Assembly (NCBI GenBank): GCA_949296115.1
Contig: CASFNR010000019.1
Span: 1 to 35,398 of the forward strand
Length of the DNA stretch: 35,398 nucleotides
Direction: 5' to 3'
Source of the DNA: an uncultured Eubacteriales bacterium
GTDB lineage: Bacteria; Bacillota; Clostridia; Oscillospirales; Oscillospiraceae
The notes under the pieces: model-generated
Told to the model about the DNA's origin: nothing
The model's database searches: none
Seen by the model: only the letters and a program-made list of their open reading frames with translations
Part shown: one piece after another, positions 13,719 through 34,868 of the stretch
Numbering within the stretch: position 1 is the first letter of the stretch
How the letters are laid out: every line of letters starts with the position of its first letter
Program-made: the position numbers and the translations under genes

Positions 13719-13730
13719 AAAGTTCACAAA

Positions 13731-13760: not shown

Positions 13761-13790
13761 TCTGCAATCATTTCAAATTGGAGATTTTCT

Positions 13791-15953: not shown

Positions 15954-15965
15954 TTCCAGCGAAAG

Positions 15966-15992
15966 CGCCGCGGCACGAACAGTGCCGCGGCG
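15966..15992 (+). terminator. GC-rich hairpin between phosphorylase and maturase genes
   Basis: Perfect 11-bp arms CGCCGCGGCAC / GTGCCGCGGCG and a GAACA loop lie 12 bases after the phosphorylase stop. No T-run follows, so it may only reduce transcription into the maturase gene. Confidence 0.6.
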
Positions 15993-16030
15993 TACTGCCG
16001 TAAGAAAAGAGGTGCGTTTCCCTGCTTACC

Positions 16031-19380: not shown

Positions 19381-19430
19381 ATTGTTCCCCCTCATCATCT
19401 CTGACGGTAATCCCCGTTTCTATACTGTGG

Positions 19431-19909: not shown

Positions 19910-21232
19910 ATGAAGAACACGGATTTTTTTAATGAAGTCTTGACTGACAGTGCTTCCATTACATGGAAGGATATCTTTTCGGAATCCTTTCGCAAACACG
20001 ATCAGTCAGACATTGACCGGGCGATGCGTGTGGGGACGACCTTGCGTCAGGTTCCCGAGAGCCAGATGCTTCAGCGGTGGCACCGCCCCTGGCTGTGGTG
20101 GGTACTGGCCAAATATGGGGTTGGGCTGGTGATAGTCCTGTACCTGGTGAATGATGCGCTGCTCACCGTCCTGCACTTCAGCGCCAATTCCCTGATCCAC
20201 ATGGTCATGATTATCCCGCCGATTGTTATCCCTTTTGTCATCATGATTTTCATGTGGGAGCTGAATGTTCCCCAAAATATATCCCTGCTCTCTCTGATCT
20301 CCTACTTCCTCGCCGGCGGCATCATCAGCTTCGCCCTGACGACGCTTCTGTTCCTTCCCGTTCCGGAACAGGCGGCAACTTATGCGGCGCTCCGGGAGGA
20401 ACCCGCCAAGCTGGGCGCCTGTCTGGTGATCCTGCTGTACATCCAGCGGGTAAAAAAGCAGAAGCTTTATGGGCTGACCGGTCTGGTGGTGGGCGCCGCT
20501 GTGGGAGCAGCCTTCTCCGGAATTGAGTCCGTCAGCTACGCCATTGACTTCTCCGGTGAATACAACACCATGATAGACGTCCAGTTTCAGCGTGCGATGT
20601 TTGCCATTGCCGGCCACATAACCTACTGCCTGCCCTATGCCACCGCAATTGCCTGCAATACCGTAGACGGAAAAATAACCGTATCCAGTATCCTGAACCC
20701 ATACACCATAGGGTCCTTCCTTTTTTCCACCCTGATGCACGCTGTTTGGAACGGCAACGGCGGCAACATGATCATCCTGCTTATCCTTGTGGGCATCAGC
20801 CCGGTCATTTTGCTGTATTGGATTCGGAAGGCCCTCAAGGACATTGTCCGGATCTGCTCACGCGGCGGCGGGAAGCAGGCGTCTGCCGAGGGATGGGAAA
20901 AGGTCCCCGCCCGGGCGGCGGCTTCTCCCATTGCCCTGTACTGCCAATCCGGCGCCCTGGCGGGAACCCGCTGGGAGAGCAGCGGAAATCCCCTTGTCCT
21001 GGGGCGGGACCCGGGAACCTGCGGAATCTGCTTCCCCGATGGTTCTCACGGCGTCAGCCGGCAGCACTGCAGGATTGCCCGTTCTTCCAACGGCTGGTAT
21101 ATCCAGGATCTGCACTCTACATACGGCACCTATGTGGGCGGCCACAGGCTGGCGCCCAATGAATGCTATCCGCTGCGTGGAGGGGAAATCATCTATCTTG
21201 GCTCCAAAAATACCTGTATTGCGATTTTATAG
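19910..21232 (+). CDS. PrsW-type intramembrane metalloprotease fused to a C-terminal FHA domain
   Basis: This 440-residue membrane protein has about eight hydrophobic spans between residues 62 and 306. It carries PrsW-family active-site signatures: EEPAK (163-167), GIES with Glu206, GHITY with His235 and HAVW with His277. PrsW proteases cut membrane proteins; in Bacillus subtilis PrsW makes the first cut in anti-sigma factor RsiW. The C-terminal cytosolic part (about 341-440) is an FHA domain with GRD at 365-367, SRQH at 383-386 and STYGTYV near 403. Fusion to FHA suggests that proteolysis is steered by threonine phosphorylation from the operon's kinases. ATG 19910 has GAGGGG 7 bases upstream. 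It is the first gene of the ten-gene operon. Confidence 0.88.
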   Translation: MKNTDFFNEVLTDSASITWKDIFSESFRKHDQSDIDRAMRVGTTLRQVPESQMLQRWHRPWLWWVLAKYGVGLVIVLYLVNDALLTVLHFSANSLIHMVMIIPPIVIPFVIMIFMWELNVPQNISLLSLISYFLAGGIISFALTTLLFLPVPEQAATYAALREEPAKLGACLVILLYIQRVKKQKLYGLTGLVVGAAVGAAFSGIESVSYAIDFSGEYNTMIDVQFQRAMFAIAGHITYCLPYATAIACNTVDGKITVSSILNPYTIGSFLFSTLMHAVWNGNGGNMIILLILVGISPVILLYWIRKALKDIVRICSRGGGKQASAEGWEKVPARAAASPIALYCQSGALAGTRWESSGNPLVLGRDPGTCGICFPDGSHGVSRQHCRIARSSNGWYIQDLHSTYGTYVGGHRLAPNECYPLRGGEIIYLGSKNTCIAIL

Positions 21233-21249
21233 ACGAGGAAGGAAACGAT

Positions 21250-22482
21250 ATGAGAAACAGAAAGCGTTTAACCTGCACCGTCCTTGCACTGATTCTGGCA
21301 ATTTTCCTGCTGGCGCCTTCGGTCACCTGCGCAACGGCCGCAACCGGTGCCGCCCCGGTATTCTGCGGCATGGTAGAGGACAATCAATTTGTGGCCCTCC
21401 GGATCGGCATCCCCCTTTTGCTGGACGATACGCCCTGTGTGCTGGTTTCTCCGGATCTATACTACGCCTCTGAGGAACCCCTCGTGGTTCTGGGGGATAC
21501 TTTGACCCGCATGGCATTCAGCACAACCCTTTCCTGTGAAATGGATGTTTATCAGGTATCCACGGATCAGACGAGCCTGTTCTACAAAACGGCCGCATTT
21601 ACCCAGGGGGCGGATTACACGCTTGTGGGAGTCAGCAGCGAGATGGAACTTGTTGCCGTTTCCGCTGCCATCACGGATTCCTCCGACGAGGCGAACACGG
21701 ACGGCTTCTATGTGCTGACCGTGGAACTGAATGAGCAGACCTCGGACGACATCTATCTCCCGGTTGCTCTGGTAAACCAGCGCAATGAATGCGTTGGCTT
21801 CGGCATATCGGGCATGTCCTTTTACGGGTTCGCCCCGACAGAAAATGTCCGGGAGACAGCGCCCGCCGCTGATCCCGATGATGCTGCCGATCCTGCACCC
21901 ACACGCTCTGCTCCCGGCGGCGATGCCGGCGATGAGGGCCAGTCCATGGACACACGGTATCTGTATTTCGGAATCGGCGCCGCTGCGGTGCTCCTGGCGG
22001 TTTGGGCTGCAAGGTTCCTGTCCCGCAAAAACCAATCCGGCGGGTCCCATCGCCCTGCCGCTGACCAGACACCGTCCGATTTTCCGGAAACCATGCCTTT
22101 CGGATCCGCTCCTGCGGGACAGCCGGCCCACACGGGGTGGGAGAGCGTTTCTGCGCCTCCGCAGGGCGCCGGCGTATACCTGGAATGCACCGGCGGCGGG
22201 TTCCAGGGGACACGGTATCCCTTCTCGGGCCGCAGTGTGCTGATCGGCCGCGCAGAGGACGCTGCGATTCGCTACCCTGCCAATACGAAGGGAGTCAGCC
22301 GCAGGCACTGCCAAATTGTCCTGCAGAACGGAGCGCTTCTTCTTACCGACCTTGGCTCAACTTCCGGCACCTATCTGGGAAGAACCGGGCGGCTGTCTCC
22401 CAATTCCCCGGTGCCCCTCTCCGACGGAGACACGTTCTACCTCGGCTCCAGGAATATCTCTGTAACGGTGCGGATCCGCTAG
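21250..22482 (+). CDS. Membrane protein: unknown external domain, TM, cytosolic FHA
   Basis: This 410-residue protein has a signal peptide (1-32), an external domain (about 35-200), an acidic Pro/Ala linker, one membrane span (237-257) and a cytosolic FHA domain (309-410) with LIGRAED, SRRHC and SGTYLG. I do not recognise the external domain by name. Its end, PVALVNQRNECVGFGISG, resembles the strand after the active serine in trypsin-like proteases (compare GPLINDAGAVVGINTQ in the next gene), while no GNSGG or NCHVV motif is present, so it may be an inactive protease-like fold. The ATG at 21250 follows AGGAAGG; the upstream ORF start overlaps the previous gene. The gap to that gene is 17 bases. 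Confidence 0.82.
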   Translation: MRNRKRLTCTVLALILAIFLLAPSVTCATAATGAAPVFCGMVEDNQFVALRIGIPLLLDDTPCVLVSPDLYYASEEPLVVLGDTLTRMAFSTTLSCEMDVYQVSTDQTSLFYKTAAFTQGADYTLVGVSSEMELVAVSAAITDSSDEANTDGFYVLTVELNEQTSDDIYLPVALVNQRNECVGFGISGMSFYGFAPTENVRETAPAADPDDAADPAPTRSAPGGDAGDEGQSMDTRYLYFGIGAAAVLLAVWAARFLSRKNQSGGSHRPAADQTPSDFPETMPFGSAPAGQPAHTGWESVSAPPQGAGVYLECTGGGFQGTRYPFSGRSVLIGRAEDAAIRYPANTKGVSRRHCQIVLQNGALLLTDLGSTSGTYLGRTGRLSPNSPVPLSDGDTFYLGSRNISVTVRIR

Positions 22483-22529
22483 GCGGCAAGCCCCGGAGCG
22501 CATCAATTCCCCATAAAACAGGAGGAATC

Positions 22530-23768
22530 ATGGTGAAAAGAGTCTTGATATATCTTGCTGTGCTTTTGGTATGTGCCGTTAACGGCCTCCTGCTTCCGGT
22601 TTCTGCGGCCGGGGACAATCCGGTCCCCCGGGCCAAGCAAGGTGTGGTGCGGATCTATTCCGGAATCTACTTTGACGGGAATGACCACGTTCAGGTTTAC
22701 GATGACGGCTACGCCTCAGGAACCGGTTTCGCAATCGGTGCGGCGGGTACGGATTCCAGTTATTTTCTCACAAACTGCCATGTTGTCTCGGATGGGAACT
22801 GGGAGACATATGAGACGGTGTACATTGCGCTGGACGGCTCCAGCGTGGGCAACCGTTCCTCTCTGGTTCCCTGCGAAGTGGTCTATGCCGACCCGCATGT
22901 GGACCTGGCAGTCATATGCGCCTCCAGTCCGATAAAAGGCGTTCCGCCGCTTGTGCTCAGCTCCCAGGACAGCATCCAGACGGGCGAGCATGTCTATGCG
23001 CTGGGATTCCCCGGAATTGCGGATGCCATTACAGGTTCCGCAGATTCTTCGGCCGAGGACATTACGGTCACGGACGGCATCCTGTCCCGGAAATTGACCG
23101 GAAAGGACAACATTGCATATCTGGCGCATACCGCGGATGTGAATCATGGCAACTCCGGCGGCCCGCTGATCAATGATGCCGGCGCTGTCGTTGGAATCAA
23201 CACCCAGATTCGCATTGACGCCGAAACCACGGACATTCGGTTTTACGCCATTCCCATTGATTACGCCACGGAAGTGCTGGATGCGCTTTCCATTGACTAC
23301 TGCAGCGAATCCGACGGCTCCGCCGGCGGCTCGCAGCAGGTTCTGCTCCTTGCTGCTGCGGCGGGCGGTGTGCTTGTTCTCGGTGCGGGCGTGCTGATGT
23401 GGTTCCGGAGCCGATCGGGACGGCGCTCGGGTTCTCCCGCCGCAGAGAAAATCCATTACACCCTGATCTCCGCGGATTTGGGCCAGTCCTGGCAGGTTAC
23501 GAAGCCGCTGCGCATCGGCCGGGACCCCTCCGGCGATATTGTGTTTCCGGCAGCCACCAACGGGGTCAGCCGTGTCCATTGCCGGATAGAACCGGATGGG
23601 GATTCGGTTTTGGTTACCGACGCAGGGTCCGCCTACGGAACCATTGTACGCGGGCAGAAGCTGCCCCCGCATTACCCCGTGCGGATCTCCGGCGATGCGG
23701 CCATTTTCCTGGGAAGCAATCATGTTGCCTTGATGCTGCGCAAGGCTGGGAAAGGAGGTTCTGATTGA
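22530..23768 (+). CDS. External trypsin-like serine protease with TM and cytosolic FHA
   Basis: This 412-residue protein has a signal peptide (1-27), then an S1/HtrA-like protease domain (about 35-255) with a complete triad: His84 in NCHVV, Asp125 in HVDLAVI and Ser209 in GNSGGP. No PDZ domain is present. One membrane span (about 270-292) and a cytosolic FHA domain (308-405; RIGRD, SRVHC, SAYGT) follow. Export with a membrane stop implies that the protease faces outwards and the FHA inwards. It could cleave external ligands or its neighbours' ectodomains while the FHA docks it to phosphorylated partners; this is inference. GGAGG lies 4 bases before ATG 22530 and 7 before the adjacent GTG, so either may be used. 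Confidence 0.9.
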   Translation: MVKRVLIYLAVLLVCAVNGLLLPVSAAGDNPVPRAKQGVVRIYSGIYFDGNDHVQVYDDGYASGTGFAIGAAGTDSSYFLTNCHVVSDGNWETYETVYIALDGSSVGNRSSLVPCEVVYADPHVDLAVICASSPIKGVPPLVLSSQDSIQTGEHVYALGFPGIADAITGSADSSAEDITVTDGILSRKLTGKDNIAYLAHTADVNHGNSGGPLINDAGAVVGINTQIRIDAETTDIRFYAIPIDYATEVLDALSIDYCSESDGSAGGSQQVLLLAAAAGGVLVLGAGVLMWFRSRSGRRSGSPAAEKIHYTLISADLGQSWQVTKPLRIGRDPSGDIVFPAATNGVSRVHCRIEPDGDSVLVTDAGSAYGTIVRGQKLPPHYPVRISGDAAIFLGSNHVALMLRKAGKGGSD

Positions 23769-23778
23769 GGTGAACAGT

Positions 23779-24378
23779 ATGCGAATTGAGCTGCTTCAAT
23801 GCAGCCGGGGGCATTACTATGCCAGCACCTATCCCACCTGTCCGTTCTGCCACAATGACTCTGTGTCCCCGATTGTGGAGTCGGAAATGCCCGTTTCGTC
23901 CCCGTGGGCAAGGGAGACGGGTGTTCCGGGCTTCCAGCCGGCCCCGCCTGCTTTTGATTCGGCAAAGGAGGCTTTTGCCGAGGATTACGGTCCCACCCAG
24001 GCTGTCCCGCTGGCGGGACAGCTGAGCGACATTGACCCGGTTGTAGGGTGGCTGGTCGGTATCCGGGGGCCATACCGCGGTATGGCGTTCCGGCTTCACT
24101 CCGGGTCCAATTTCCTGGGGCGCAGCAGCCAAATGGACATATCCCTTCCCGAAGATCCGGCGGTCAGCACAGAGCGGGCCGCAGCCGTCTCCTATGATGC
24201 GCGGACGAATATCTTTTTCCTGGAACGCGGCGAGGGCCGCAATCAACTCTATCTCAACGGAAACGCAGTCCGGCAATCGGAGGACCTGCACGCCAACGAC
24301 CGTCTTTCGCTGGGCAGCTGCGAATTCCTCTTCTATCCTTTGTGCGGAGAGGCGTTCAACTGGAACACCACCCCGTAG
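23779..24378 (+). CDS. Zinc-ribbon plus FHA adaptor protein, copy 1
   Basis: This 199-residue soluble protein begins with a small metal-binding knuckle (CSRGH at 8-12 and CPFC at 21-24). A linker containing EDYGPTQAVP follows, then an FHA-like domain (about 90-190) with FLGRSSQMD and LYLNGN. The usual His of the SxxH phosphopeptide loop is not conserved (STERA). There is no signal or membrane span, so it is cytosolic. The next gene is a paralogue. The ATG at 23779 follows GAGGTG at 6 bases; a GTG at 23770 is the alternative. A likely role is an adaptor or kinase substrate, similar in spirit to GarA/FhaA-type proteins. No enzymatic motif is visible. Confidence 0.82.
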   Translation: MRIELLQCSRGHYYASTYPTCPFCHNDSVSPIVESEMPVSSPWARETGVPGFQPAPPAFDSAKEAFAEDYGPTQAVPLAGQLSDIDPVVGWLVGIRGPYRGMAFRLHSGSNFLGRSSQMDISLPEDPAVSTERAAAVSYDARTNIFFLERGEGRNQLYLNGNAVRQSEDLHANDRLSLGSCEFLFYPLCGEAFNWNTTP

Positions 24379-24428
24379 ATCCCCTTCCAAATTTTTCAAA
24401 GAATTGACACACAGGGAGGTTGCTTACA

Positions 24429-25172
24429 ATGGCAATGATGAAATGCAGCAGAGGGCATATCTATGACAGTTCTCTGGGCTACTGTCCGGTCTGCAATCGG
24501 GAGGCCGGCAGTTTCTCCGCGGCGAATGATGTCGGCGCCACCATGCCGGGCACCGTGGGCGGCCCGGACAGTATCGGACCTACCATGCCGGGAAACATGG
24601 GGGCTTTTGCGCCGGACAACATTGGGCCGACCATGCCCACCGACGATGCCTACGGCCATACCATGGGCAGTCCCGCCGCCGGCGCCTATTCCTTCGACGG
24701 CGGTGTCGGCAGAACCGAGCCTGCCACGGACCCTGGATTCACAGAAATGTTCGGCGGGCGGAAGTCCTCCGCCGGGGCCGAGGACTATGGCCCGACCATG
24801 CCGGACCCCATCAACGGGGTGACGGGTTTTGATCCCATCGTGGGTTGGCTGGTTTGCGTGAAGGGCCCCAACCGCGGAAAGGATTACCGTCTGCACAGCG
24901 GAACCAATTTCATTGGGAGAAGCCCGGAAATGGATGTGTGCATACAAAATGACGACGCCATCAGCAAGCGCAATGCGGCATCCATTTCCTATGACGACCG
25001 CACCCGCTCCTTCTTCATTCAGAAAGGAGAAGTACGGAACCTGCTCTATCTGAACGGCAAGCCCGTTCGGTCCGATGCGGACCTGGTGAAGTACGACAGA
25101 ATTGAGATCGGCTCAACCGAACTGCTGTTTGTCCCGCTGTGCGGGGAAGGCTTCTCCTGGCAGGAAATTTAA
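24429..25172 (+). CDS. Zinc-ribbon plus FHA adaptor with repeated Thr-Met-Pro motifs, copy 2
   Basis: This 247-residue soluble paralogue of the previous protein carries CSRGH (6-10) and CPVC (19-22). A long flexible linker holds five near-identical motifs around Thr38, Thr52, Thr68, Thr78 and Thr122 (GATMPG, GPTMPG, GPTMPT, GHTMGS, GPTMPD). An FHA-like domain (about 138-240) follows with FIGRSPEMD and LYLNGK; SxxH is again replaced (SKRN). Regularly spaced Thr in a disordered linker, beside kinases and FHA proteins, looks like a multi-site phosphorylation scaffold; this is inference. GGGAGGTT lies 8 bases before ATG 24429. The gene ends 2 bases before the next start. Confidence 0.85.
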   Translation: MAMMKCSRGHIYDSSLGYCPVCNREAGSFSAANDVGATMPGTVGGPDSIGPTMPGNMGAFAPDNIGPTMPTDDAYGHTMGSPAAGAYSFDGGVGRTEPATDPGFTEMFGGRKSSAGAEDYGPTMPDPINGVTGFDPIVGWLVCVKGPNRGKDYRLHSGTNFIGRSPEMDVCIQNDDAISKRNAASISYDDRTRSFFIQKGEVRNLLYLNGKPVRSDADLVKYDRIEIGSTELLFVPLCGEGFSWQEI

Positions 25173-25174
25173 GT

Positions 25175-26800
25175 ATGAAAAACGAACGTAAAAAGGACCT
25201 GCAAAGGACCCTGAGAAGGCTGAAACGGATTCGCCTGTGGCTGATCCTATTGGCGGTTGGCCTGGCTGTATCCTCCGTTTTCCTGTATACACAGGCCTAC
25301 CCGGAGCTGCTTCCTTTCCAATCGGTCCCCTCCGGGGCCCATCCCGTCAGCACGAAGCAGGATGCCACGGCAACGGGAGCGCCTGCTGAATCCCTCTCGC
25401 CAATCCTGCTGCCCGCCCAGCCCACCCCGACCGAGACGGGGCCGTCACAAGAAACCTCTGATCCCGGGACGAATCTAACGGAAGGGAACGCTACTGCTGA
25501 GGTGGAGACGCAATCGGAGGAAAATACCAATTCCGGGACGGACCCAACGGAAGGGAATGCCGCTGCTGAGGTGGAGACGCAATCGGAGGAAAATACCAAT
25601 TCCGGGACGGACCCAACGGAAGGGAACGCCGCCACCGAGGTGGAGACACAATCGGAGGAAAATACTGATCTCGGGATGGACGCAACGGGAGGGGAGGATG
25701 CCCTTTCTGACGCAGAGCTGACCCAGGAGAAGTCGGATGCCGATTTGAACCGGACATCGGCTGATCAGGAATTTGCCCAGGCAGAAGAAGTCCTTTCCGC
25801 AAACGAGGGCAGGGAGGAAACGGGCGCACCTGCCAGTACCGAAACGACTTCCGCCGCTGGGACGGCGGACGATGTTTCCGCCCCTGCTTCCAGCAGCACC
25901 CTGTTTTTTCGGGTCCTGTTTTGGGCGGCGATCTTTCTGCTGTCCCTGGACGGGCTAGGGATTGTCCTTGTGTCTTTGCTTGTTTCCAGAGTGTGTCATG
26001 CTGCGGCTGATGACGGAGCCGGACAGTCCTCTGCTGCCGGTACCCAGGCGCCTGCAGCCGCCGCTTCTGATGTGCGGGTAGGTACCCTCCATCAGATTGG
26101 CGCCCGCCCGTATCAGGAGGACTCCTACGGAGTGCTTCAGCTCCATGACGGCCTGCTTGCCATTGTGGCGGACGGTATGGGGGGACTTTCCGGAGGCGAC
26201 CGCGTCAGCCAGAAGATTGTTCAGACAATGGCGCAGAATGGGGCGGCGCTCCGTCCGGAAGAAATGGACCGTGCCCTGGAATTTTTGCTTCAGGCTGCGA
26301 ATTACGAGGTCAACCAGATGCTGGGACCGGACGGCATCTACAAAAGCGGATCAACGCTGCTTTCCGTACTGGTATCTCAGGGACGATTCCAATGGATCTC
26401 TGTGGGGGACAGCCGGATTTATTTCTTCCACCGAGGTGTGCTTACCCAGCTCAATCAGGAGCACACCGTGGGCCAGGAGCTGATGCGCAAGGCAATGCGC
26501 GGTCTGATAACCTATGAAGAAGCCAAATCCGCCCCCAATAAAAATCGGGTAACCAGCTTCGTCGGAATGGGGGAGCTGAAGTATGTGGACAAGAGCCGCA
26601 GCAGCATTCCCCTGGAGCCGGGAGACCGGATTCTCCTGATGTCCGACGGTGTTTTCAACACCGTTGCGCCGGATGTAATCCAGGCAATTCTGGCCCGAAT
26701 CTCCGACCCCCAGGAGGCCGCCGACCAGATCTGCCGCCAGGTAATGCAGGCCGCAAATCCCAGACAGGACAATTTCACGGCGGTGATTCTGGGCATTTGA
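25175..26800 (+). CDS. Receptor-like transmembrane PP2C phosphatase with an external repeat region
   Basis: This 541-residue protein has a basic cytosolic N-terminus, TM1 (about 20-38), an external acidic low-complexity region of about 200 residues, TM2 (about 240-272) and a cytosolic PP2C domain (about 302-541). The external region includes a 23-residue unit repeated three times (98-166, of the type GTDPTEGNAAAEVETQSEEN). The phosphatase has all metal-binding motifs: YQEDSYG, VADGMGG, GDSRIY, SDGVFN and RQDNF. It should remove phosphate from Ser/Thr targets of the operon's kinases. The ATG at 25175 lies 2 bases after the previous stop, so translation is probably coupled. This topology differs from the usual soluble bacterial PP2C (Stp/PrpC). 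Confidence 0.9.
   Translation: MKNERKKDLQRTLRRLKRIRLWLILLAVGLAVSSVFLYTQAYPELLPFQSVPSGAHPVSTKQDATATGAPAESLSPILLPAQPTPTETGPSQETSDPGTNLTEGNATAEVETQSEENTNSGTDPTEGNAAAEVETQSEENTNSGTDPTEGNAATEVETQSEENTDLGMDATGGEDALSDAELTQEKSDADLNRTSADQEFAQAEEVLSANEGREETGAPASTETTSAAGTADDVSAPASSSTLFFRVLFWAAIFLLSLDGLGIVLVSLLVSRVCHAAADDGAGQSSAAGTQAPAAAASDVRVGTLHQIGARPYQEDSYGVLQLHDGLLAIVADGMGGLSGGDRVSQKIVQTMAQNGAALRPEEMDRALEFLLQAANYEVNQMLGPDGIYKSGSTLLSVLVSQGRFQWISVGDSRIYFFHRGVLTQLNQEHTVGQELMRKAMRGLITYEEAKSAPNKNRVTSFVGMGELKYVDKSRSSIPLEPGDRILLMSDGVFNTVAPDVIQAILARISDPQEAADQICRQVMQAANPRQDNFTAVILGI
25466..25672 (+). repeat. 69-bp tandem repeat, three copies, inside the receptor-like PP2C gene
   Basis: Units start at 25466, 25535 and 25604, each 69 bases (23 codons), nearly identical in DNA, with a degenerate fourth partial unit afterwards. 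They encode an external Thr/Glu-rich spacer. High DNA identity implies recent expansion and a likely variable copy number between strains. Confidence 0.92.
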
Positions 26801-26861
26801 TGGGTGAAAGGGCATCTTTTTCCCCGGAATACGTCGTGCGAAGGAATGCAAGGAGGGAAAC

Positions 26862-28262
26862 ATGAGCGATTCTGCAAATACCTGTACGCTGTGCTGGCAG
26901 GGTTCCTACATAAACGGCATCTGCAGCCACTGCGGTGCGTCCAGCGTCTCTTCTGAGAATCGCCGTGCCGATGCGCTTCCTTTGGGCAGCGTGCTGAACA
27001 ACCGCTACCTGATCGGGGACGTCCTGGGAAAGGGAGGCTTCGGCGTTACATACTCGGCCTGGGATAATGCGGCGGGGAAGCGGGTGGCGCTGAAGGAACT
27101 TTTTCCCAGCACCAGTGTCTACCGGGCTGCCGACCGCAGCACCGTGGGCGTAATCGCCGCCCACAAGGACTATGTGGACGCCTTGAAGCAAAAGTTTGAA
27201 GAAGAGGCACGGCTGCTGGAGATGCTCCATGGCAGCTGTAATGTGTCGACCGTTTACGACTGTTTCTCCTGCAACAATACGGTCTACTACACCATGGAGT
27301 TTCTGGAGGGCTGTGACCTGAAGGCGCTGCGGAAACGCTATGGCCCGCTGAACTGGCCCACCATGGAGCCGATTCTGATCGATCTGCTGGAAACGCTGGA
27401 TCAGCTGCACGAGAAAAATCTGATTCACCGGGATATCAGCCCCGATAATATTTTCCTGACCAAGGACCGACGGGTCATTCTCATCGATTTTGGATCGGCC
27501 AGGACCTACCAGGGCATGCAGAATTTCACGGTCCAGAAGAAAGACGGCTTCACGCCTTGGGAGCAGATCGGCTCCACCCGCAAGCAGGGGCCCGGCACCG
27601 ATTTTTACGCATTGAGCGCCACGGTGTATTTCCTTTTGACCGGGGAACTGCCGCCCAAGGCCGAGGACCGTGTCCTGAACCGCAAGCAGCTGAAGCCGCT
27701 GAAATCCCTGTGCCCCAGCGTTCCGGAAGCGGCGGCAGCAGCCATTGAAAAAGGCATGAATGTCCGGATCGAAGACCGATTCCATTCCGCCAAGGAGTAT
27801 CTGGCAGCGCTTTCGGCCTCTGCGTCCGGCAGGGAAAAGAAGGTGCCGGACACCAGGGATCTTCCGGCAGAGCCGAGGCGTGAGCCCACCGTGAAAACCC
27901 CGGAACCAATCCCCGTCTCCAGCCATGTTTCCGGCCAGGATGTCTGGCTCTATGGGCTGGAGGGACACTACGCCGGGGAGCGCAGACGGCTGAAGCCCGG
28001 CGAACGGCTGCTGTTCGGCAGACTGGATTCCAACACAATCTCCTTTCCGGTTCAGACCGCAGGCGTCAGCAAAGTCCATTGTGAACTGTACTGGGACACG
28101 GGCTCCGGCTCCGTCTATATCCGGGACTCCGGTTCTACCTTCGGAACCTATCTCAATGAGCGCCGGATCGGGCGGGAATGGAATGTTCTTCGTCCCGGCA
28201 GCAGACTTCGAATCGGAAATCAGGTGTTTTTTCTGGCCGCAACAAGAAAGGAATCCCTATGA
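26862..28262 (+). CDS. Zinc-ribbon Ser/Thr protein kinase with C-terminal FHA
   Basis: This 466-residue cytosolic kinase has an N-terminal zinc ribbon (Cys8, 11, 21, 24) and a Hanks-type kinase domain (about 48-320). Catalytic elements are complete: glycine loop LGKGGFG (55-61), Lys78, HRDISPDN (189-196), IDFG (Asp209) and GFTPWEQ in the activation segment. A C-terminal FHA domain (about 361-462; LFGRLD, SKVHC, STFGTYLN) follows. It lacks a membrane span and PASTA repeats, unlike PrkC. The FHA probably recruits phosphorylated membrane partners encoded alongside it. ATG 26862 has AAGGAGGG upstream, and its stop overlaps the start of the soluble PP2C (ATGA), so an opposing kinase/phosphatase pair is translationally coupled. 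Confidence 0.93.
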   Translation: MSDSANTCTLCWQGSYINGICSHCGASSVSSENRRADALPLGSVLNNRYLIGDVLGKGGFGVTYSAWDNAAGKRVALKELFPSTSVYRAADRSTVGVIAAHKDYVDALKQKFEEEARLLEMLHGSCNVSTVYDCFSCNNTVYYTMEFLEGCDLKALRKRYGPLNWPTMEPILIDLLETLDQLHEKNLIHRDISPDNIFLTKDRRVILIDFGSARTYQGMQNFTVQKKDGFTPWEQIGSTRKQGPGTDFYALSATVYFLLTGELPPKAEDRVLNRKQLKPLKSLCPSVPEAAAAAIEKGMNVRIEDRFHSAKEYLAALSASASGREKKVPDTRDLPAEPRREPTVKTPEPIPVSSHVSGQDVWLYGLEGHYAGERRRLKPGERLLFGRLDSNTISFPVQTAGVSKVHCELYWDTGSGSVYIRDSGSTFGTYLNERRIGREWNVLRPGSRLRIGNQVFFLAATRKESL

Positions 28263-28981
28263 GAATATGTAAGGCCGCATTCTCCCAAGCCGGAGGCAGG
28301 CAGGAAAATGAGGACCGTTTCAGCTGCGAGTTGTCTCAGGGGCGGCGGGGCTACGCAGTGGTGGCGGACGGACTGGGCGGACATGGCGACGGCGCATTGG
28401 CGGCTGAAATTGTGGTTGCTCATTTTTCACGCTGCGGCGGATGCGAAGATCTTCCCACGCCGTCTCAGATCGAGGACTGGTTCCAGTCCGCCAATGCCGA
28501 AATTCAATCCAGACGAACATCCCAAAACAGGATGAAAAGCACCGTGGTTTTCCTGGCGCTTTTTCAGGACAAAGCCATCTGGGCGCACGCCGGGGACTCC
28601 CGCCTGTACCACTTCTGCAATGGCGTGCTTCAGGATGTCACCTATGACCACAGCGTTCCCCAGGTCGAGGTTCTGCTGGGGGAGCTGACCCGGGAGCAGA
28701 TTCCCCTGAGCCCGGACCGAAACAAGCTTTTACAGGCAGTTGGCTCGGAAGACCTGCAGCCGGAAATACACATTCCCATGCCCCTGCAGCCGGGACGGCA
28801 CGCCTTTCTCCTGTGCAGCGATGGATGCTGGGAATATCTGTCCGACGAGGAAATTGCCCTGGATCTGGTCAGGGCGGATACCCCGGAGATGTGGCTCCGC
28901 AATCTCCGGCGCCGCATGGAATCCCGCCAGTCGGACGATGCCGACAACTGCACCGCAGTTGCGCTGTACGCAGAAGTGTGA
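28259..28981 (+). CDS. Soluble PP2C-family Ser/Thr phosphatase
   Basis: This 240-residue cytosolic phosphatase, the normal size for bacterial PP2C, carries the metal-binding set QENEDRFS, VADGLGGHGDG (Asp37), GDSRLYHF, CSDGCWE and DADNCT. It overlaps the kinase-FHA gene by 4 bases and should counter it. The ATG at 28259 follows AAGAAAGGA at 6 bases. The long in-frame extension upstream lies within the kinase gene and is not used. It is the second phosphatase of the operon; the first is membrane-bound. Confidence 0.92.
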   Translation: MRICKAAFSQAGGRQENEDRFSCELSQGRRGYAVVADGLGGHGDGALAAEIVVAHFSRCGGCEDLPTPSQIEDWFQSANAEIQSRRTSQNRMKSTVVFLALFQDKAIWAHAGDSRLYHFCNGVLQDVTYDHSVPQVEVLLGELTREQIPLSPDRNKLLQAVGSEDLQPEIHIPMPLQPGRHAFLLCSDGCWEYLSDEEIALDLVRADTPEMWLRNLRRRMESRQSDDADNCTAVALYAEV

Positions 28982-28991
28982 GGAACGGAAT

Positions 28992-30602
28992 ATGAGACGT
29001 CTACTATGTATCTTATCCGCCTGGCTGACGGTGCTGCCTTTGCTGCTGTCCGCTCAGGCAGCACAGCAGTCCGAAATCATTCAGTATACCCGAATTGAGG
29101 GCACGCAGCTGACGGTGGCCTGCGCCAATATGGAATCCGGCGGTACCTACCATGTTTCACTGAACGGCACGGAACTTCCGGTACAGGCGCAGGCGCTGGA
29201 AAGCACGCAGGCGCCGGTTACCATATTCTGTCTTGTGGATACGTCCGGCAGTATGAGCTACTACAAAAAGAAGCTGCTTCAGGAGACGCTGCTGACCCTG
29301 AGCCAGTCTCTGCGCCAGGATGACACCATGGTGATTGCCACCATTGACAATCACCTGGAAGTCAGTGACCCCCTTCCCGCATCCTCAGACTGGGAAAGCG
29401 TGATCGGCCGGATTCAGCCCGGAAATCTGGACACGGATCTGTATACGGGGATCGTTTCCTGTCTGGAGCTGCTTTCCAGCGACCAGCGCTACAGCCAGGA
29501 CCGGTGCCTTGTGGTGCTTTCAGACGGTGACGACTGCCAGTCCAACGGCATGACCGATACGGAAGTCCTGGAGGCGGTGAAGCGCAGCCGAATTCCGGTT
29601 TATACCGTAGCGCTGGTTCAGAAATCCAGCGAACAGGAAGGCGGGAAGATACTGGGGAGCTTTTCCAGAGCCTCCTACGGGGGAATCCACCAGACTACCG
29701 TTGCAGAGGGCGGCGGCTATATGCTGCGTACCGACGTATCCGGGGCGGATTTTGCCGGCGGGATCTGGGAGAACATGATGGCAACTTCCATTTTGCAGAT
29801 TGATCTTTCTCAGGCTGCGGTTTCCCGCCAGAATCCGGAGGTTACGCTGTATCTCACCTATGAGGTGGATGCGCGGACCTATTCCGATGAAATTGCGCTG
29901 AAGACGGAGGATTTTCCGCCTCCGCCTGTTCAGGAAACCACGGAAGCAGCCATCCCGGAGACCACCGTCGGCACAACGGTTCCCGCTGCGCGCAAAGAAA
30001 GCACGTCTCCGCTTCTTCCTGCGGCGGCTGGGGTGGCTGCGGTCATCGTTCTTGCGGCGGTTGTGGTATGGTGCGTTGTCCGGAGAAAGAAGAAGGCCGG
30101 AACGGAGGCGGCTCCTGCCCCGGAATCTCCGCCTGACCCGCTGGCTCCCACATCCCCCGGGCTGACCCCGCCGGAATCGGCAACCGACGCCCCTGCCTCG
30201 TCAGAACCGGATGTGCCCCGGGGCAGGCAATATCGTGTCACCCTGGTAGACATCCCCCACGGCAGACGGACCGTCCAATTCACCGTCCCGGAAAATGTGC
30301 CTGCCACATTCGGGCGAACGCCGCGCTCAGCCTGTATCCTCAATCCGGAGGACAGCACCCTGTCCGGTGTGCATTTCTCCGTGATTATCCGGGAAAACGG
30401 CAGCCTTCTCCAGGACGAGGGATCGCAGAACGGTACGTTCCTGAACGGAATTCCCATCCCGCGGAAAAGCTGGGTCGCGCTGCACAGCCACGATAAAATT
30501 CGGGCTGGGGGATATGAATATCGAATTACCATTACTCCCGCATCCATGGACGGGTCAGGCGCCGCATGGAACCGGGGGGCTGAAAAGGAGAGATCGGAAT
30601 GA
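28992..30602 (+). CDS. External von Willebrand A-domain protein with TM and cytosolic FHA
   Basis: This 536-residue protein has a signal peptide (1-24), then an external vWA domain (about 75-270) with a MIDAS metal site (DTSGS, 83-87; further SDGDD near 177-181). A Pro/Thr linker, one membrane span (about 340-362) and a cytosolic FHA domain (about 411-515) follow; the FHA is canonical with FGRTP, SGVHF and SQNGTFLNG. vWA domains bind protein or matrix ligands through a metal ion, so this could be an adhesion or ligand sensor. vWA, PP2C and kinase also form the TerY-P triad, but there the vWA is cytosolic. ATG 28992 has GAGGAACGGAAT upstream. Its stop overlaps the next ATG. Confidence 0.92.
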   Translation: MRRLLCILSAWLTVLPLLLSAQAAQQSEIIQYTRIEGTQLTVACANMESGGTYHVSLNGTELPVQAQALESTQAPVTIFCLVDTSGSMSYYKKKLLQETLLTLSQSLRQDDTMVIATIDNHLEVSDPLPASSDWESVIGRIQPGNLDTDLYTGIVSCLELLSSDQRYSQDRCLVVLSDGDDCQSNGMTDTEVLEAVKRSRIPVYTVALVQKSSEQEGGKILGSFSRASYGGIHQTTVAEGGGYMLRTDVSGADFAGGIWENMMATSILQIDLSQAAVSRQNPEVTLYLTYEVDARTYSDEIALKTEDFPPPPVQETTEAAIPETTVGTTVPAARKESTSPLLPAAAGVAAVIVLAAVVVWCVVRRKKKAGTEAAPAPESPPDPLAPTSPGLTPPESATDAPASSEPDVPRGRQYRVTLVDIPHGRRTVQFTVPENVPATFGRTPRSACILNPEDSTLSGVHFSVIIRENGSLLQDEGSQNGTFLNGIPIPRKSWVALHSHDKIRAGGYEYRITITPASMDGSGAAWNRGAEKERSE

Positions 30603-33600
30603 TAGTCAACCGCTGTTGGAATTGCATGGAGGATGTGGGCGACAATGTAATTTGCCCCCACTGCGGTTTCAACCCACAGACGGCGCAGCCGAATCCCTAT
30701 GCGCTGCAGCCCAATACCATTCTGCACGGCAAATACCTGGTGGGCAGCGTCCTGGGCCAGGGGGGATTCGGCATCACCTACATCGGGCTGGATTTGACGC
30801 TGGAGATGAAGGTCGCCATCAAGGAATATTTCCCGATGAACCAGGCCACCCGCAACAGCCAGTTCAGCAGCGCACTTCAATGGAAGGAGCAGGATGGTTC
30901 CCAGACAAATTGGAGAACCGGCTGCAGCCAGTTCCTGGCCGAGGCGCGAAAGATGGCCAAGATAAACGCCATCCCGGAAATTGTGGGCGTCCGTGACACC
31001 TTTGAGGAGAACAATACGGCGTATATTGTGATGGACTATGTTCCGGGCGTTACGCTTAAGGAATACGTCCGCAAGAACGGCTGCCTGAGTTTTTCGGAAT
31101 GTGTGGAATTGCTGCTTCCGGTCATCGCCGGATTGGACGGCCTGCATCACCAGGGAATCATTCACAGGGACATCAGTCCGGACAATCTGATGATAACGCC
31201 TGAGGGCAAGGTATATCTTCTGGACCTGGGTGCGGCCAAGGATATGAAAGACGCCGCTGCCGGTGCAGCGCCCGCCTCCAAAATCGGGTTCAGCCCTCTG
31301 GAGCAGAACGCCGGCGGCAACAACATCGGTGCGTGGACCGACGTATACGCCCTTGCGGCGTCCATCTATTACTGCGTGTTCGGCAAGCTGGTTCCGCCCG
31401 CCATGGAACGGCTGGAGGAAGATACCCTGAGTTTCTCCCACAAGACCAAGAAGCCGCTGACGAAAGAACAGATTGAGGTGATGAAGAAGGCCCTGGCGGT
31501 AACCCGGGAGCTGCGCTATCAGAATGCCATGTATTTCTACATGGCGCTCCGGGACAGCATCCAGAGCAAGAAAAATACGTTCTGGTGGAAAATTGCCGGG
31601 GCTGTGGGCGGTGCGCTTCTGGTGGCAGCCGGCATTGCGGCCCTTCTGGTATACAAGCCCTGGCTTCCCTCTGTGGTTGAGTGGGGAGACCCTGCCCATG
31701 GTTCCTTCTTCGACTCGGATTTTGTGACCATCAAAGAGGAATATCTGTACTATGTGGATTTGGACGCTTCCCTGGTGCAGTGCGTATATGACAGTGTGGA
31801 TCAGACATTCTATGTAGACAACTACCGTGTCATCTTCTCCCAGGATGAGGACATTGCGGGAGATGGTGTGTGCGGCCTGTACCGCACGGAGGACAAGCTG
31901 ATTTTCTCCTATTCCGGCGGCACCAACAGTCAGGGGGAACTTCTGAGCAGCTATGTATACACCATGGACTACGACGGAGGAAATATCTCCCGGCTTTTTG
32001 AGATTGACACAGAGTCCAGCATCCCCCAGTATGTGCGCTTGTCCAACAACACGGAATACCTGTATTTCCTGAAAAGCCTCAACACGAAAAAATCCGATGA
32101 TGAGGCCCTTGTTCTGAGCCTTTACCGGTACAACATTCAGGAGGACACCCTGGAGCAGATTCTGGAAGACCCTGTTATGTGGTACACCATTGCCGAAAAA
32201 TGGATTTATTTCAATTATTGGGATGAGGAAGCGGAGCATTATGTTCTTTGCCGGGCCTCCTTGGACGGCGATGATATTACGGTCCTGGACACCATTCACT
32301 CCTATTGGAATGGATTCTACCGGGACGGCCAGCTGTACCTGATTCAGAACCTGAATGCCTCCGGTGTATACAGCCCGGGACTGGTTGCCTGTGACGCGGA
32401 TGCTCAGCCGCTTCAGGAAGAAAAGGGCATCTTCGGAGTCGACTGGAATACGGTCCAGTGGACAGAAGGGGGCGGATGGATTTTCTATTCCAACGAAGGC
32501 AGTCAGGAAATCAGCAGAATTCGTCTGGACGGCACGGAAAACAGCACCATTCTCACCGGCTACACCTGCGGCTCCCTGAACTACCAAAACGGCTGGCTGT
32601 ATTTCACGGACGGAATGCTGGGAGAAGATGGAAGCTTTACTCCTTATCAGGCCTACTTTGCCGGAGAGGACGGCAGCTGGGTAATCAGCTGCGGCTTTGA
32701 ACCCAAGACGCTGGTGGACAGCCAGGGGATGCACTATGTTGTCCGGGACGGGCAGGCGCAGATTGTGGGCTATACCGGCACCGCCACGGATGTAATTATC
32801 CCGCTGGAATTCAATGGCTATCCTTTGAACGATGCTGTGGACTGGGATACCTTCACCTGGGGCGTCACCAGCAATGTTCAGTTCTATGCCCAGATGGATC
32901 CGTCTGAGCTGACCTGCATCAGAAATGCGGACGGCATAACCATTACCGGGTACACCGGCATGAAAACCGGGGCCTACTCCTTCGTTGCTGTTCCCTCGAC
33001 GATTGAGGGCACGCCGGTTGTTCGGATTGATGACGGCGTTTTTGCGGATTGCACCTTCACGGGGGTGTATCTGCCGAAGCAGCTGGAAGAAATTGGAGTG
33101 GAGGCTTTCGATTCCTGCCCGAATCTGTCTCATGTGGTTTTCCCGGACACCCTTCGGCTGATTGATGACTATGCGTTCTTTAACTGTCCCTTTGAAGACG
33201 TTGAAATCGTCCTGCCGGACGGCCTGACCCATATGGGCAAGGGTGTGTTCATGTTCTCCGAGCCAAAGAGCGTATACCTGCCGGCCTCCCTGACCAATAT
33301 TTCCGGCGGCTTCCTCGCCATGTGCGGCGGAGAGTACATTGTGGATCCCAACCACAAGCAGATGAAGTCCGAGTACAGCGTAATTTTCTCCAAGGACAGT
33401 ACCGTTTTGTATGCGTTCCCCTATGACTGCGCCGGCAACTATGTAGTGCCCGACACGGTCAAGAAAATCTACAGCGGGACCTTCTACGGCAGTCTGCTGG
33501 TGAATGTGAAATTGCCGGAAGGACTTACCACCATCGGCTCCAGCGCGTTTATGTACAGCACCGAACTGGAAAAGATCAACATACCCAGGAGTGTAAAGGA

Positions 33601-33715
33601 AATTGGCGATCAGGCTTTTTACAATACCAGCCTGAAGCAAGTTACCATTCCCCGTGGAATCGTTGACCGGGATGATGCCTTCGATGCGGATACCAACGTC
33701 TATTTCTACAAGTGA
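30599..33715 (+). CDS. Transmembrane Ser/Thr kinase with external propeller-like and leucine-rich repeat domains
   Basis: This 1038-residue protein has an N-terminal zinc ribbon (Cys6, 9, 19, 22) and a Hanks-type kinase (about 46-322) with LGQGGFG, Lys75, HRDISPDN (189-196), LDLG (DFG variant, Asp209) and GFSPLEQ. One membrane span (about 329-352) follows. The external part has a DUF5050-like stretch of repeated WIYFxN/LYFxD beta units (about 360-690) and BspA-type leucine-rich repeats (LRR_5, about 790-1030; for example LPKQLEEIGVEAFDSCPNL). The kinase thus faces the cytosol and its sensor the outside, taking the role PASTA repeats have in PrkC. It overlaps the vWA gene by 4 bases and is the last gene before the terminator. 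The ligand is unknown. Confidence 0.93.
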   Translation: MIVNRCWNCMEDVGDNVICPHCGFNPQTAQPNPYALQPNTILHGKYLVGSVLGQGGFGITYIGLDLTLEMKVAIKEYFPMNQATRNSQFSSALQWKEQDGSQTNWRTGCSQFLAEARKMAKINAIPEIVGVRDTFEENNTAYIVMDYVPGVTLKEYVRKNGCLSFSECVELLLPVIAGLDGLHHQGIIHRDISPDNLMITPEGKVYLLDLGAAKDMKDAAAGAAPASKIGFSPLEQNAGGNNIGAWTDVYALAASIYYCVFGKLVPPAMERLEEDTLSFSHKTKKPLTKEQIEVMKKALAVTRELRYQNAMYFYMALRDSIQSKKNTFWWKIAGAVGGALLVAAGIAALLVYKPWLPSVVEWGDPAHGSFFDSDFVTIKEEYLYYVDLDASLVQCVYDSVDQTFYVDNYRVIFSQDEDIAGDGVCGLYRTEDKLIFSYSGGTNSQGELLSSYVYTMDYDGGNISRLFEIDTESSIPQYVRLSNNTEYLYFLKSLNTKKSDDEALVLSLYRYNIQEDTLEQILEDPVMWYTIAEKWIYFNYWDEEAEHYVLCRASLDGDDITVLDTIHSYWNGFYRDGQLYLIQNLNASGVYSPGLVACDADAQPLQEEKGIFGVDWNTVQWTEGGGWIFYSNEGSQEISRIRLDGTENSTILTGYTCGSLNYQNGWLYFTDGMLGEDGSFTPYQAYFAGEDGSWVISCGFEPKTLVDSQGMHYVVRDGQAQIVGYTGTATDVIIPLEFNGYPLNDAVDWDTFTWGVTSNVQFYAQMDPSELTCIRNADGITITGYTGMKTGAYSFVAVPSTIEGTPVVRIDDGVFADCTFTGVYLPKQLEEIGVEAFDSCPNLSHVVFPDTLRLIDDYAFFNCPFEDVEIVLPDGLTHMGKGVFMFSEPKSVYLPASLTNISGGFLAMCGGEYIVDPNHKQMKSEYSVIFSKDSTVLYAFPYDCAGNYVVPDTVKKIYSGTFYGSLLVNVKLPEGLTTIGSSAFMYSTELEKINIPRSVKEIGDQAFYNTSLKQVTIPRGIVDRDDAFDADTNVYFYK

Positions 33716-33912: not shown

Positions 33913-34001
33913 GGATGATGAGAGAGACTGCGGCAATCGGCCTGGCGTGATTTTTGCCTTGGGTTGCGGTTTTGTTTTTTGTCCCAAATGGAGGTAAGCT
34001 T

Positions 34002-34868
34002 ATGAAGAAACGTGTATTGAGCCTGCTGATGGCGGCGGTGCTGGTGCTGTCGTTGGTACCGGCGGGGGCATTGGCCGCTGAGGGCACCCCGGATGGGCAG
34101 AATCTTTCTGCCTGCATCTGTGAAAGCAAGTGTACCGAGGGGAATGTGAATTCTGAGTGCCCGGTGTGCGGTGCCGAGGGTGCAGACCTTTCCGCCTGTC
34201 AGGGCAAGGAGCCGGAGCAGTCCCAGGAGAATGAGAATTCCCCGGCGGAGTCGGAGAAATCCACCTGTATCTGCACCACGAAATGCGCCGAGGGCAGCGT
34301 GAATCCTGACTGCCCGGTGTGCAGCGCAGCAGGTGCCGACTTGGCGGTCTGCGTGGGCGAAGCGTCCCAGCCGGAGCCGCCCCAGGTAACCACCATCAAG
34401 ACCTGGAACTGGATCGGCGGAGACAACCTCAACAATGGCGTCCTGTCCCTGATCGGCGCTGGCGCAGAGAACCCCGTGGACTTTGCCACAGTGGTCTCCC
34501 TGCTGCCCACCGGTATCACTGCCGCGGTGGAGGGCAGCGCCGACCCGGTGGAGTTGATTCTGACCTGGTCCTGCGGGGACTTCCCCAAACAGGCCACCGA
34601 GGGTACATACACCTTTACGGCTGCCCTGCCCGAGGGTTATGCCCTGGGCGAGGAAACAGCGGCCCTCACCGTGCCGGTCATTCTGGGCGGGGCGCAGTTG
34701 CAGGCGGCAGAAGGTGCGCCTAATAGTCTTTATGTTGGCAATTACCAGATTACAAGCGGTGATACGCCAACCTACTTAAAAGCAGGTACAACAGAAGGTA
34801 GCCTGGCAGATGGCAGTGAAAACGATTGGACTGTCAAATACGACCCAGCCACCGTCACCCTGGCCTGA
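34002..34868 (+). CDS. Secreted cysteine-repeat surface protein, N-terminal part (frame ends early)
   Basis: The 288 residues start with a clear signal peptide (1-26, MKKRVLSLLMAAVLVLSL, cleavage near ALAA). Two tandem cysteine-rich units follow (about 36-66 and 87-117; pattern CIC..KC.EG.VN..CPVC...GADL..C), separated by a Glu/Ser spacer. An Ig-like stretch and a module beginning SLYVGNYQITSGDTPTYLKAG come next. The frame stops at TGA 34866-34868 in the middle of what should be a repeat domain. Homologous-looking sequence continues one base out of frame. ATG 34002 follows GGAGG at a spacing of about 8. The protein would be wall-anchored if it continues into the sequence at 1-349. Confidence 0.8.
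   Translation: MKKRVLSLLMAAVLVLSLVPAGALAAEGTPDGQNLSACICESKCTEGNVNSECPVCGAEGADLSACQGKEPEQSQENENSPAESEKSTCICTTKCAEGSVNPDCPVCSAAGADLAVCVGEASQPEPPQVTTIKTWNWIGGDNLNNGVLSLIGAGAENPVDFATVVSLLPTGITAAVEGSADPVELILTWSCGDFPKQATEGTYTFTAALPEGYALGEETAALTVPVILGGAQLQAAEGAPNSLYVGNYQITSGDTPTYLKAGTTEGSLADGSENDWTVKYDPATVTLA

Follow-up and report, generated by a model that had tools for sequence, protein, structure and literature searches.

A candidate phosphothreonine-signalling cassette that joins Hanks kinases, a zinc-ribbon/FHA hub and FHA-tailed membrane proteases

Bacteria commonly possess Hanks kinases, PP2C phosphatases and FHA proteins, but to our knowledge few complete Hanks/FHA circuits, from receptor to output, are known outside the Actinobacteria and the type VI secretion system (T6SS). 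Here we describe ten genes (g1 to g10) at positions 19910-33715 of a 35,398-bp contig (C19; "the window" below means this whole stretch) from an uncultured Oscillospiraceae bacterium, whose assembly comprises 2.42 Mb in 85 contigs and is 89.6% complete. The cluster is, almost certainly, one copy of a real, widespread and apparently unnamed cassette made of known domain types. We slightly favour reading it as a self-contained membrane phosphothreonine-signalling cassette, in which a multivalent hub protein (g5) would recruit proteases bearing cytosolic FHA tails.

Described relatives and the layout of the window's cluster

Several described systems share parts with this cluster. GarA and OdhI act on metabolic enzymes; PpkA, of the T6SS pathway, contains a vWA part; and the TerY-P triad of kinase, PP2C and vWA protein, which resembles the cassette, is associated with Ter proteins. 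PrkC and Stp likewise combine a Hanks kinase that has an ectodomain with a PP2C, whereas the cassette kinases of the window carry LRR/DUF5050 or FHA domains and not PASTA repeats. HtrA and DegS are trypsin-fold proteases with a His-Asp-Ser triad and, usually, a PDZ domain, which is not listed for g3.

The likeness to GarA and OdhI is closest at the hub. In these proteins and in DgcB, the tail threonine is followed at +3 by a hydrophobic residue that is read by the FHA cleft, as an excerpt of PMC6733907 describes. GarA and OdhI are solved-structure relatives of the hub, which like them has an N-terminal tail threonine ahead of a single FHA domain and the hydrophobic +3 residue; it differs in its zinc ribbon, its many T-x-P motifs and a gene neighbourhood that includes PP2Cs and FHA-bearing membrane proteases. 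In Sulfolobus, the zinc-finger and FHA protein ArnA is paired with a phosphorylated vWA protein, ArnB; this pair, however, is archaeal and represses motility, and the excerpted source names no protease-FHA fusion (PMC6509490). ArnA was not among the profile matches of the hub up to an E-value of 5. The T6SS pathway of PpkA, PppA and Fha1 also couples a kinase and a PP2C to an FHA read-out (PMC6213207, excerpt), whereas the vWA domain of the cassette sits on an FHA protein and not on the kinase, the cassette includes protease-FHA proteins and a zinc-ribbon hub, and 13 of the 17 cassette genomes tested gave no match to a T6SS marker. Neighbourhoods of the GAP1-N2 system bring together a kinase, often with a zinc ribbon, and PP2C and vWA genes, but are GTPase-associated, with no FHA-protease fusion and no hub named in the excerpt (PMC7159879). 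Finally, PrsW-FHA fusions with the architecture of g1 were noted in 2012 by authors who suggested signalling peptidases; the available part of that paper does not describe the gene cassette (PMC3482391). The remark in the initial annotation, made from the window's sequence alone, that no named system of this composition is known therefore holds for the whole cassette, which is not described in the literature searched (most subscription journals lie outside it), and has to be qualified for the PrsW-FHA fusion.

All ten open reading frames (ORFs) lie on the forward strand, with successive gaps of 17, 47, 1, 41, 2, 61, -4, 10 and -4 bp. They encode, as had been annotated, two Hanks kinases (g7, g10), two PP2Cs (g6, g8) and seven FHA domains (Pfam; g1, g2, g3, g4, g5, g7 and g9; E 1.4e-16 to 6.5e-6). 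Pfam recovered every domain named at that stage, and DUF5050 in addition. The genes are as follows (TM, transmembrane segment).

19910..21232, + strand: g1, PrsW intramembrane protease domain (Pfam, 7e-11) with a C-terminal FHA (1.4e-16), 440 aa
21250..22482, + strand: g2, signal peptide, orphan ectodomain of about 215 aa, TM (hydropathy) and cytosolic FHA (9e-15), 410 aa
22530..23768, + strand: g3, signal peptide, trypsin/HtrA-like domain (Trypsin_2, 1e-27), TM and cytosolic FHA (7e-13), 412 aa
23770..24378, + strand: g4, zinc ribbon-FHA protein (FHA 6.5e-6), 202 aa, a diverged tandem paralogue of the hub; start GTG 23770 or ATG 23779
24420..25172, + strand: g5, the hub, with a CxxGHxYD..CPxC zinc ribbon, a linker of repeated T-x-P, an acceptor-like Thr, PIVGWLVC and FHA (3e-6); up to 250 aa, TTG start at 24420 or start at 24429
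25175..26800, + strand: g6, membrane PP2C (PP2C_2, 9e-15; hydrophobic segments) with a presumed extracytoplasmic linker
26862..28262, + strand: g7, soluble zinc ribbon-Hanks kinase-FHA protein (Pkinase 7e-29, FHA 8e-15), 466 aa
28259..28981, + strand: g8, soluble PP2C phosphatase (PP2C_2, 2e-10), 240 aa, overlapping g7 by 4 bp
28992..30602, + strand: g9, signal peptide, vWA domain (VWA_2, 3e-8) with DxSxS (by eye), TM and cytosolic FHA (2e-9), 536 aa
30599..33715, + strand: g10, zinc ribbon-Hanks kinase (Pkinase 4e-28)-TM (332-350)-DUF5050 (3e-11)-BspA-type LRR_5 (6e-39) ectodomain, 1038 aa, overlapping g9 by 4 bp

The proposed pairing of an external domain with a membrane span and a cytosolic FHA fits g2, g3 and g9, each of which has a signal-peptide-like hydropathy segment and one central segment as well as its Pfam domains. 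Four segments are found in g1, two in g6 (19-37 and 238-276), and in g10 a strong one at 332-350 and a second, weak one within the kinase domain; g4, g5, g7 and g8 have none. The start codons of g4 and g5 are placed only to within 3-5 codons, and the zinc ribbon, HRD and DFG of g7 were read from the translation by eye. The linker of g6 contains a 69-bp tandem repeat of 3.3 copies (25464-25693). Promoter-like sites inside the region (6, against 6.5 in shuffled sequence) and terminator-like sites (15 against 13.7) are about as frequent as in shuffled sequence, so that such sites neither back nor contradict an operon. No PASTA model is listed by Pfam for g7 or g10 (E <= 0.5) and the genome has its own, separate PASTA kinase on contig C26, so the cluster is, as had been stated, not PrkC/Stp.

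Recurrence of the cassette and conservation of its hub

A search with g1 matched 19 of 200 genomes of the family, the window's included. Regions from the other 18 were compared, and FHA, PP2C and kinase genes lie together in 13 of them (L034, L037, L038, L039, L041, L042 and L044-L050, the kinase of L045 being truncated where its contig stops); the remaining five comprise three short contigs (L035, L036, L040), one region with no annotated kinase (L043) and one lone FHA gene (L051). The second collection was retrieved by the hub motif alone: [DE]PVVGWL[VIA]C, on one-genome-per-species contigs, gave 436 stretches, 432 of them confirmed by tblastn, of which the best-scoring 80 were kept and their content read up to 10 kb on each side of the motif. 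In these best 80 of 432 loci, a PP2C occurs in 77 (at least two in 65), a kinase in 71, and both together in 70, which leaves chance clustering no issue; there are at least three FHA genes in 56, a trypsin-FHA in 48, a PrsW-FHA in 9, either protease in 55 and a vWA gene in 41. The homologues are thus clustered and not scattered, and their co-occurrence in both collections bears out the view that the genes form one unit.

These domain counts are probably lower bounds, as the gene caller was custom and the hidden Markov models (HMMs) were built from window sequences, several of them from a single sequence; the vWA model misses some vWA proteins that Pfam detects (L056, L092, L127). Some of the 80 loci are apparently the same contigs as family regions (L101/L042, L062/L046), and near relatives are counted separately. 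A self-training version of the caller, which made strand errors in L039, L044, L048 and L052, feeds the counts over 76 loci and 125 kinases given below. The family neighbourhoods covered exclude those of the weaker matches in G006, G025, G035, G093, G142 and G162.

Alignment of the hub with its relatives reveals a near-invariant stretch immediately ahead of the FHA core. A profile search of solved structures placed 2kkl ('Uncharacterized protein Mb1858', 3e-8) first, with GarA (6e-8) and OdhI (5e-6) as the best named relatives; by this comparison the architecture is GarA/OdhI-like, with a conserved threonine of the N-terminal tail before the FHA domain. Orthology to OdhI is not indicated by the NCBIfam OdhI model, which scores g5 at 30.2 bits, below its curated cut-off of 200. 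Among 98 motif-bearing frames, 94 with a recognised zinc ribbon were kept and 4 were dropped. All 94 have a threonine at positions -14 to -10 relative to P[VI]VGW, exactly at -12 in 78 (at -13 in g5 and -14 in g4), the chance of a threonine in this five-residue span being 0.35 per copy from linker composition.

The linker between ribbon and FHA domain is rich in a second motif. Across 71 non-redundant hubs, T-x-P occurs 178 times against 51.6 in shuffled linkers (z 20), T[MAEVIL]P 138 times against 17.1, and T..[IVL], with its hydrophobic +3 residue, 156 times against 63.4; neither S-x-P nor T-P is enriched in the same set. Counting each hub once, which discounts internal repeats, at least one T-x-P is present in 62 of the 71 (32.2 shuffled) and T-x-P-[ILV] in 45 (6.7 shuffled). 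Control linkers have no such excess in vWA-FHA proteins (z -0.8) or kinases (z -1.2) and a weak one in trypsin-FHA proteins (z 3.0), at proline contents of 9.5% for vWA-FHA proteins, 14.9% for kinases and 11.4% for hubs. A GKTVAV-like motif was found 46 times in hub linkers (0.8 expected) and 4 times in those of vWA-FHA proteins (0.1 expected). The pattern extends outside the Bacillota, where T-x-P occurs in 12 of 19 non-redundant hubs and the pre-FHA threonine in all 19.

A tree of the hubs, which has few columns and long branches and was used only for the g4/g5 relation and the phylum spread, makes g4 the sister of g5 (support 100/93) on an end branch of 2.03. The seven FHA domains are consequently not seven independent adaptors, as an earlier count of seven FHA proteins had implied, since g4 and the hub are tandem sisters, with g4 the diverged one. 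In the same tree the g4/g5 pair of the window groups with a mostly Lachnospiraceae set and not with the main Oscillibacter clade, a placement that may point to transfer.

FHA-tailed proteases and variable kinases

A trypsin-FHA gene is the most frequent occupant of the slot between the first two PP2C genes: over the 76 loci with at least two PP2C genes it stands there alone in 37 and with others in 3, a PrsW-FHA gene stands there alone in 1, other genes in 12 and nothing in 23. Among the 12, in L083 the slot holds an M48 peptidase-FHA protein (Pfam M48, 1e-21), with a homologue in L077 (HMM), both carrying AHExAHH, and in L132 a TM198-like-FHA protein. Judged by their sequences, then, three unrelated proteases (trypsin, PrsW and M48) occur as FHA fusions between the PP2C genes.

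The triad H84, D125 and S209 is invariant in 14 aligned proteins including g3, whose best solved-structure matches are HtrA/Deg proteases and for which Pfam lists FHA and no PDZ; of 60 trypsin-FHA proteins, 53 have the His motif (N.HV) and 56 have the Ser motif. Aligned with 12 relatives, g1 has the motifs EEPAK, GIE, GH and LMHAVWN, and scores 42.4 bits with the Pfam PrsW model (cut-off 23.5). EExxK is retained in g1 and seven other rows of the 13 (the later motifs of L091 are not within the aligned piece, and the FHA part of L036 lies past the contig end), whereas in L057, L061, L066, L069 and L098 the Glu pair is gone, as are the Glu and His motifs that come after it (the last motif of L098 is not within the aligned piece). 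These five are an apparent pseudoprotease lineage, so that a scaffold use also seems to exist. It had been proposed that the system ends in PrsW proteolysis; this is too strong, as only 9 of the 80 loci have PrsW-FHA while 48 have trypsin-FHA, and 5 of 13 PrsW rows have lost the catalytic motifs.

The ectodomain of g2 had one weak match among 199 other family genomes (E 0.007, with internal stops). That it is a dead trypsin, an idea formed by eye, is not claimed: a profile comparison with trypsin-FHA proteins gave 0.2% probability, and the AlphaFold model, at pLDDT 34.6, was unusable.

An unlikely though serious alternative is that the membrane FHA proteins are sensors, so that vWA, trypsin-fold or LRR ectodomains, on binding a ligand, would recruit kinase and phosphatase through FHA-phosphothreonine contacts and the output would be cytosolic phosphoproteins of metabolism or transcription, as for GarA and OdhI. 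The resemblance of the hub to those two controllers of metabolic enzymes, the pseudo-PrsW of five loci that retains a membrane FHA without catalytic motifs, and a g2 ectodomain with no recognised catalytic domain all agree with it. However, an invariant trypsin triad and a Ser motif in 56 of 60 proteins speak for kept catalysis, and sensing alone does not predict three unrelated protease folds recurring on FHA.

The kinases vary at their other end. Among 125 kinases, HRD was found in 122, a DFG-like motif in 109, a VAxKE-like motif in 105 and an N-terminal zinc-ribbon pattern in 96; an N-terminal zinc ribbon is thus common to many kinases and the hub. In 54 scanned ectodomains (53 of the 62 listed and the window's) there are 41 Pfam families, including LRR, TPR, Sel1, DUF5050, FGE-sulfatase and YARHG, and PASTA was matched in two. 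This variety, together with the exchangeable proteases, leads us to see a constant core fitted with varying sensors and varying outputs.

Surroundings, mechanism and possible role

Origin labels in the hub tree name Bacillota, Pseudomonadota, Synergistota, Thermodesulfobacteriota, Bdellovibrionota and, in one row, Myxococcota; the spread is taken from submitters' titles, many of them of metagenome bins. Presence is patchy, in 23 of 200 family genomes and 17 of 398 genomes of the phylum (E <= 1e-20). Nineteen plasmid records match the hub, and the two inspected are annotated with generic names only: on the Azospirillum lipoferum 4B plasmid, genes for FHA, FHA, PP2C, PP2C, trypsin-like, DUF805 and kinase proteins lie between an integrase gene on one side and transposase genes on the other, and on a Leisingera plasmid kinase, FHA and PP2C genes adjoin dynamin-family genes. 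No phage record matches the hub. Among 94 proteins that flank the clusters on their outer sides (17 near-duplicate loci and neighbours of <90 or >700 aa were dropped), no Pfam family recurs in more than three, and a conserved extra partner outside the cassette was rejected on this ground. The cassette is therefore self-contained and set in unrelated surroundings. No anti-sigma factor, the type of nearby substrate that regulated proteolysis of the PrsW/RsiW kind would call for, is among the 25 most frequent of the 114 families of these proteins; a substrate may lie farther away.

Such a distribution could suit an anti-phage or inter-bacterial conflict system, in which kinase/phosphatase signalling would trigger membrane proteases. 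PADLOC matches both kinases (mad6, PD-T4-6), the PP2Cs (PDC-M21C) and the protease part of g3 (RT-Protease_XI 3e-15, LmuA 4e-14), the spread is patchy, the Azospirillum cassette is flanked by mobility genes, and L110 has an FRG-domain gene inside the cassette. The PADLOC matches nevertheless span generic kinase, protease and phosphatase domains, the NCBIfam MAD6 model, whose cut-off is 460, gives scores of 129 for g7 and 103 for g10, the flanking proteins include, among their 25 most frequent families, AAA_21 in three and N6_Mtase in one, and phage records gave no hub. We rejected a defence-system identity on the generic matches and the low MAD6 scores, and regard a role in conflict as very improbable.

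That the cassette serves a secretion machine, of type VII (T7SSb) or T6SS-like, as an accessory regulator, in the way that PpkA, PppA and Fha1 serve the T6SS of P. aeruginosa, is improbable too. The kinase/PP2C/FHA logic resembles that of the T6SS threonine phosphorylation pathway, and two loci have type VII genes by the cassette: in L092, vWA-FHA, hub, PP2C, PP2C and kinase genes adjoin an EssC-like FtsK/SpoIIIE-FHA gene, YukD and a pair of WXG100 genes, and L132 has an EssC-like gene. WXG100 also scores above cut-off in 6 of the 23 family genomes that have the hub and in 6 of the 177 that do not. But EssC (a model from one sequence) was matched in 2 of 100 sources scanned, WXG100 in neither the window's genome, which is incomplete as stated, nor 16 of the other 22 hub-positive genomes, and in each of the six family genomes that have both, the hub lies on one contig and WXG100 on another. 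TssC/VipB is present in 4 of 17 non-Bacillota hub genomes (17 of 21 such loci), the TagH-type FHA model TIGR03354 reaches at most 45.1 bits on window proteins (cut-off 120.25), and no family is shared by more than three flanking proteins. Membership of either system as a rule was rejected on the TssC/VipB, EssC and WXG100 results. The initial annotation, which had ruled out both a type VI and a type VII regulator, thus stands as a rule for T6SS, stands for type VII in the window and its own genome, and needs qualifying for type VII elsewhere, since L092, L132 and the commoner WXG100 in hub-bearing family genomes indicate that some lineages may have a T7SS-wired cassette.

Other genes near cassette copies deserve mention. 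A MotA/ExbB-type gene lies directly 3' of a small FHA gene at 12442-13245 of L068 and also in L071, L082, L084, L110 and L120, none of them Bacillota (Pfam on L068 only); an energy-coupled output is possible there. Within the cassette of L116 (12142-14460) is an ABC transporter with two N-terminal FHA domains, a layout known from mycobacterial Rv1747 (reference entry, PMC12419801). In the window's genome, the sole FHA match outside C19 at E <= 0.001, in a search that also missed g4 and g5, is a 575-aa protein with many TM segments (G000:C11, L052). Elsewhere in the window, a divergent gene just upstream of the cassette (18481-19398, - strand) encodes a protein with a cohesin domain and DUF5648, and downstream ORFs (33954-35398) encode surface proteins with CD1107-like and CBM_X2 domains, which may be one gene in two frames (near 34868-34901, by eye). 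At 10589-17152, lacto-N-biose phosphorylase and a radical SAM/SPASM protein follow sugar ABC transporter-like genes (by eye), perhaps a cluster for host-glycan use. The two contig ends (1-52 and 35347-35398) are an identical 52-bp repeat, of which the genome has further copies at C7:16-67 and C57:1-52; a circular element was rejected for this reason, and the repeat is probably a shared stretch of surface-protein genes at which the assembly broke.

Returning to the signalling cassette with a multivalent hub, the cassette itself, its domains and conservation, the conserved threonine positions and the exchange of proteases are plain from the sequences, and from them we infer where phosphorylation, binding and regulated proteolysis would take place and in which direction the signal would run. 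Transmembrane Hanks kinases with highly variable ectodomains would sense something outside the cytoplasm and phosphorylate linker threonines of the soluble zinc-ribbon/FHA hub, which would be GarA/OdhI-like but multivalent, with repeated T-x-P (often T-x-P-[LVI]) and one pre-FHA threonine. Once phosphorylated, the hub would draw together membrane proteins by their cytosolic FHA tails, both vWA proteins and proteases of the trypsin-like, PrsW and M48 types, switching or clustering these outputs at the membrane; the hub's own FHA domain could close on its phosphorylated threonine or on partners, and the two PP2Cs, one sometimes membrane-bound, would reset the state. We give this hub mechanism a little better than an even chance.

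Several observations weigh against it. Nine of the 71 hubs, and the linker of g4, have no T-x-P. The FHA domains of g1, g2, g3 and g7 have, by eye, Y, S or F where canonical FHA domains have Asn, so their phosphothreonine binding may differ, and the hub may have partners without FHA. The slot between the PP2C genes is empty in 23 of 76 loci, and neither trypsin-FHA nor PrsW-FHA was found in 25 of 80 (some contig-cut, some with M48 or another FHA-TM protein). A minority of trypsin-FHA proteins may be inactive, the five PrsW-FHA rows without catalytic motifs mean that proteolysis is not universal, and L092 and L132 adjoin type VII genes.

The predicted topology, with trypsin and vWA domains outside and FHA inside, means that information could cross the membrane either way; for the proteases an inside-out direction is perhaps modestly favoured. 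Through the cassette, signals from outside probably lead to controlled proteolysis or to the assembly of complexes at the membrane. As to its role, envelope surveillance is our leading guess, a doubtful one made by analogy, because the known envelope proteases include HtrA/DegS, PrsW and the M48 peptidase HtpX. Somewhat short of an even chance, we place the wider proposal of an unnamed class of receptor-kinase signalosome in at least six phyla, in which kinases of variable ectodomain would write several phosphothreonines on a multivalent zinc-ribbon/FHA scaffold, and this scaffold would cluster FHA-tailed membrane proteases of unrelated folds for inside-out, phosphorylation-dependent control of proteolysis, be it within the membrane or beyond it.

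Within Hanks-kinase/FHA signalling, the cassette is unusual in its multivalent hub and its exchangeable FHA-tailed proteases. One gene cluster bundles what would be receptor, eraser, scaffold and output, in several phyla and in hosts that range from Oscillospiraceae and Lachnospiraceae to purple sulphur bacteria with named strains; Allochromatium palmeri DSM 15591, Oscillibacter valericigenes and Brevibacillus dissolubilis are among the named hosts. Its layout raises the sharp question of whether phosphorylation inside the cell switches a protease outside it, and the conserved hub motif offers a simple marker for further copies of the cassette.

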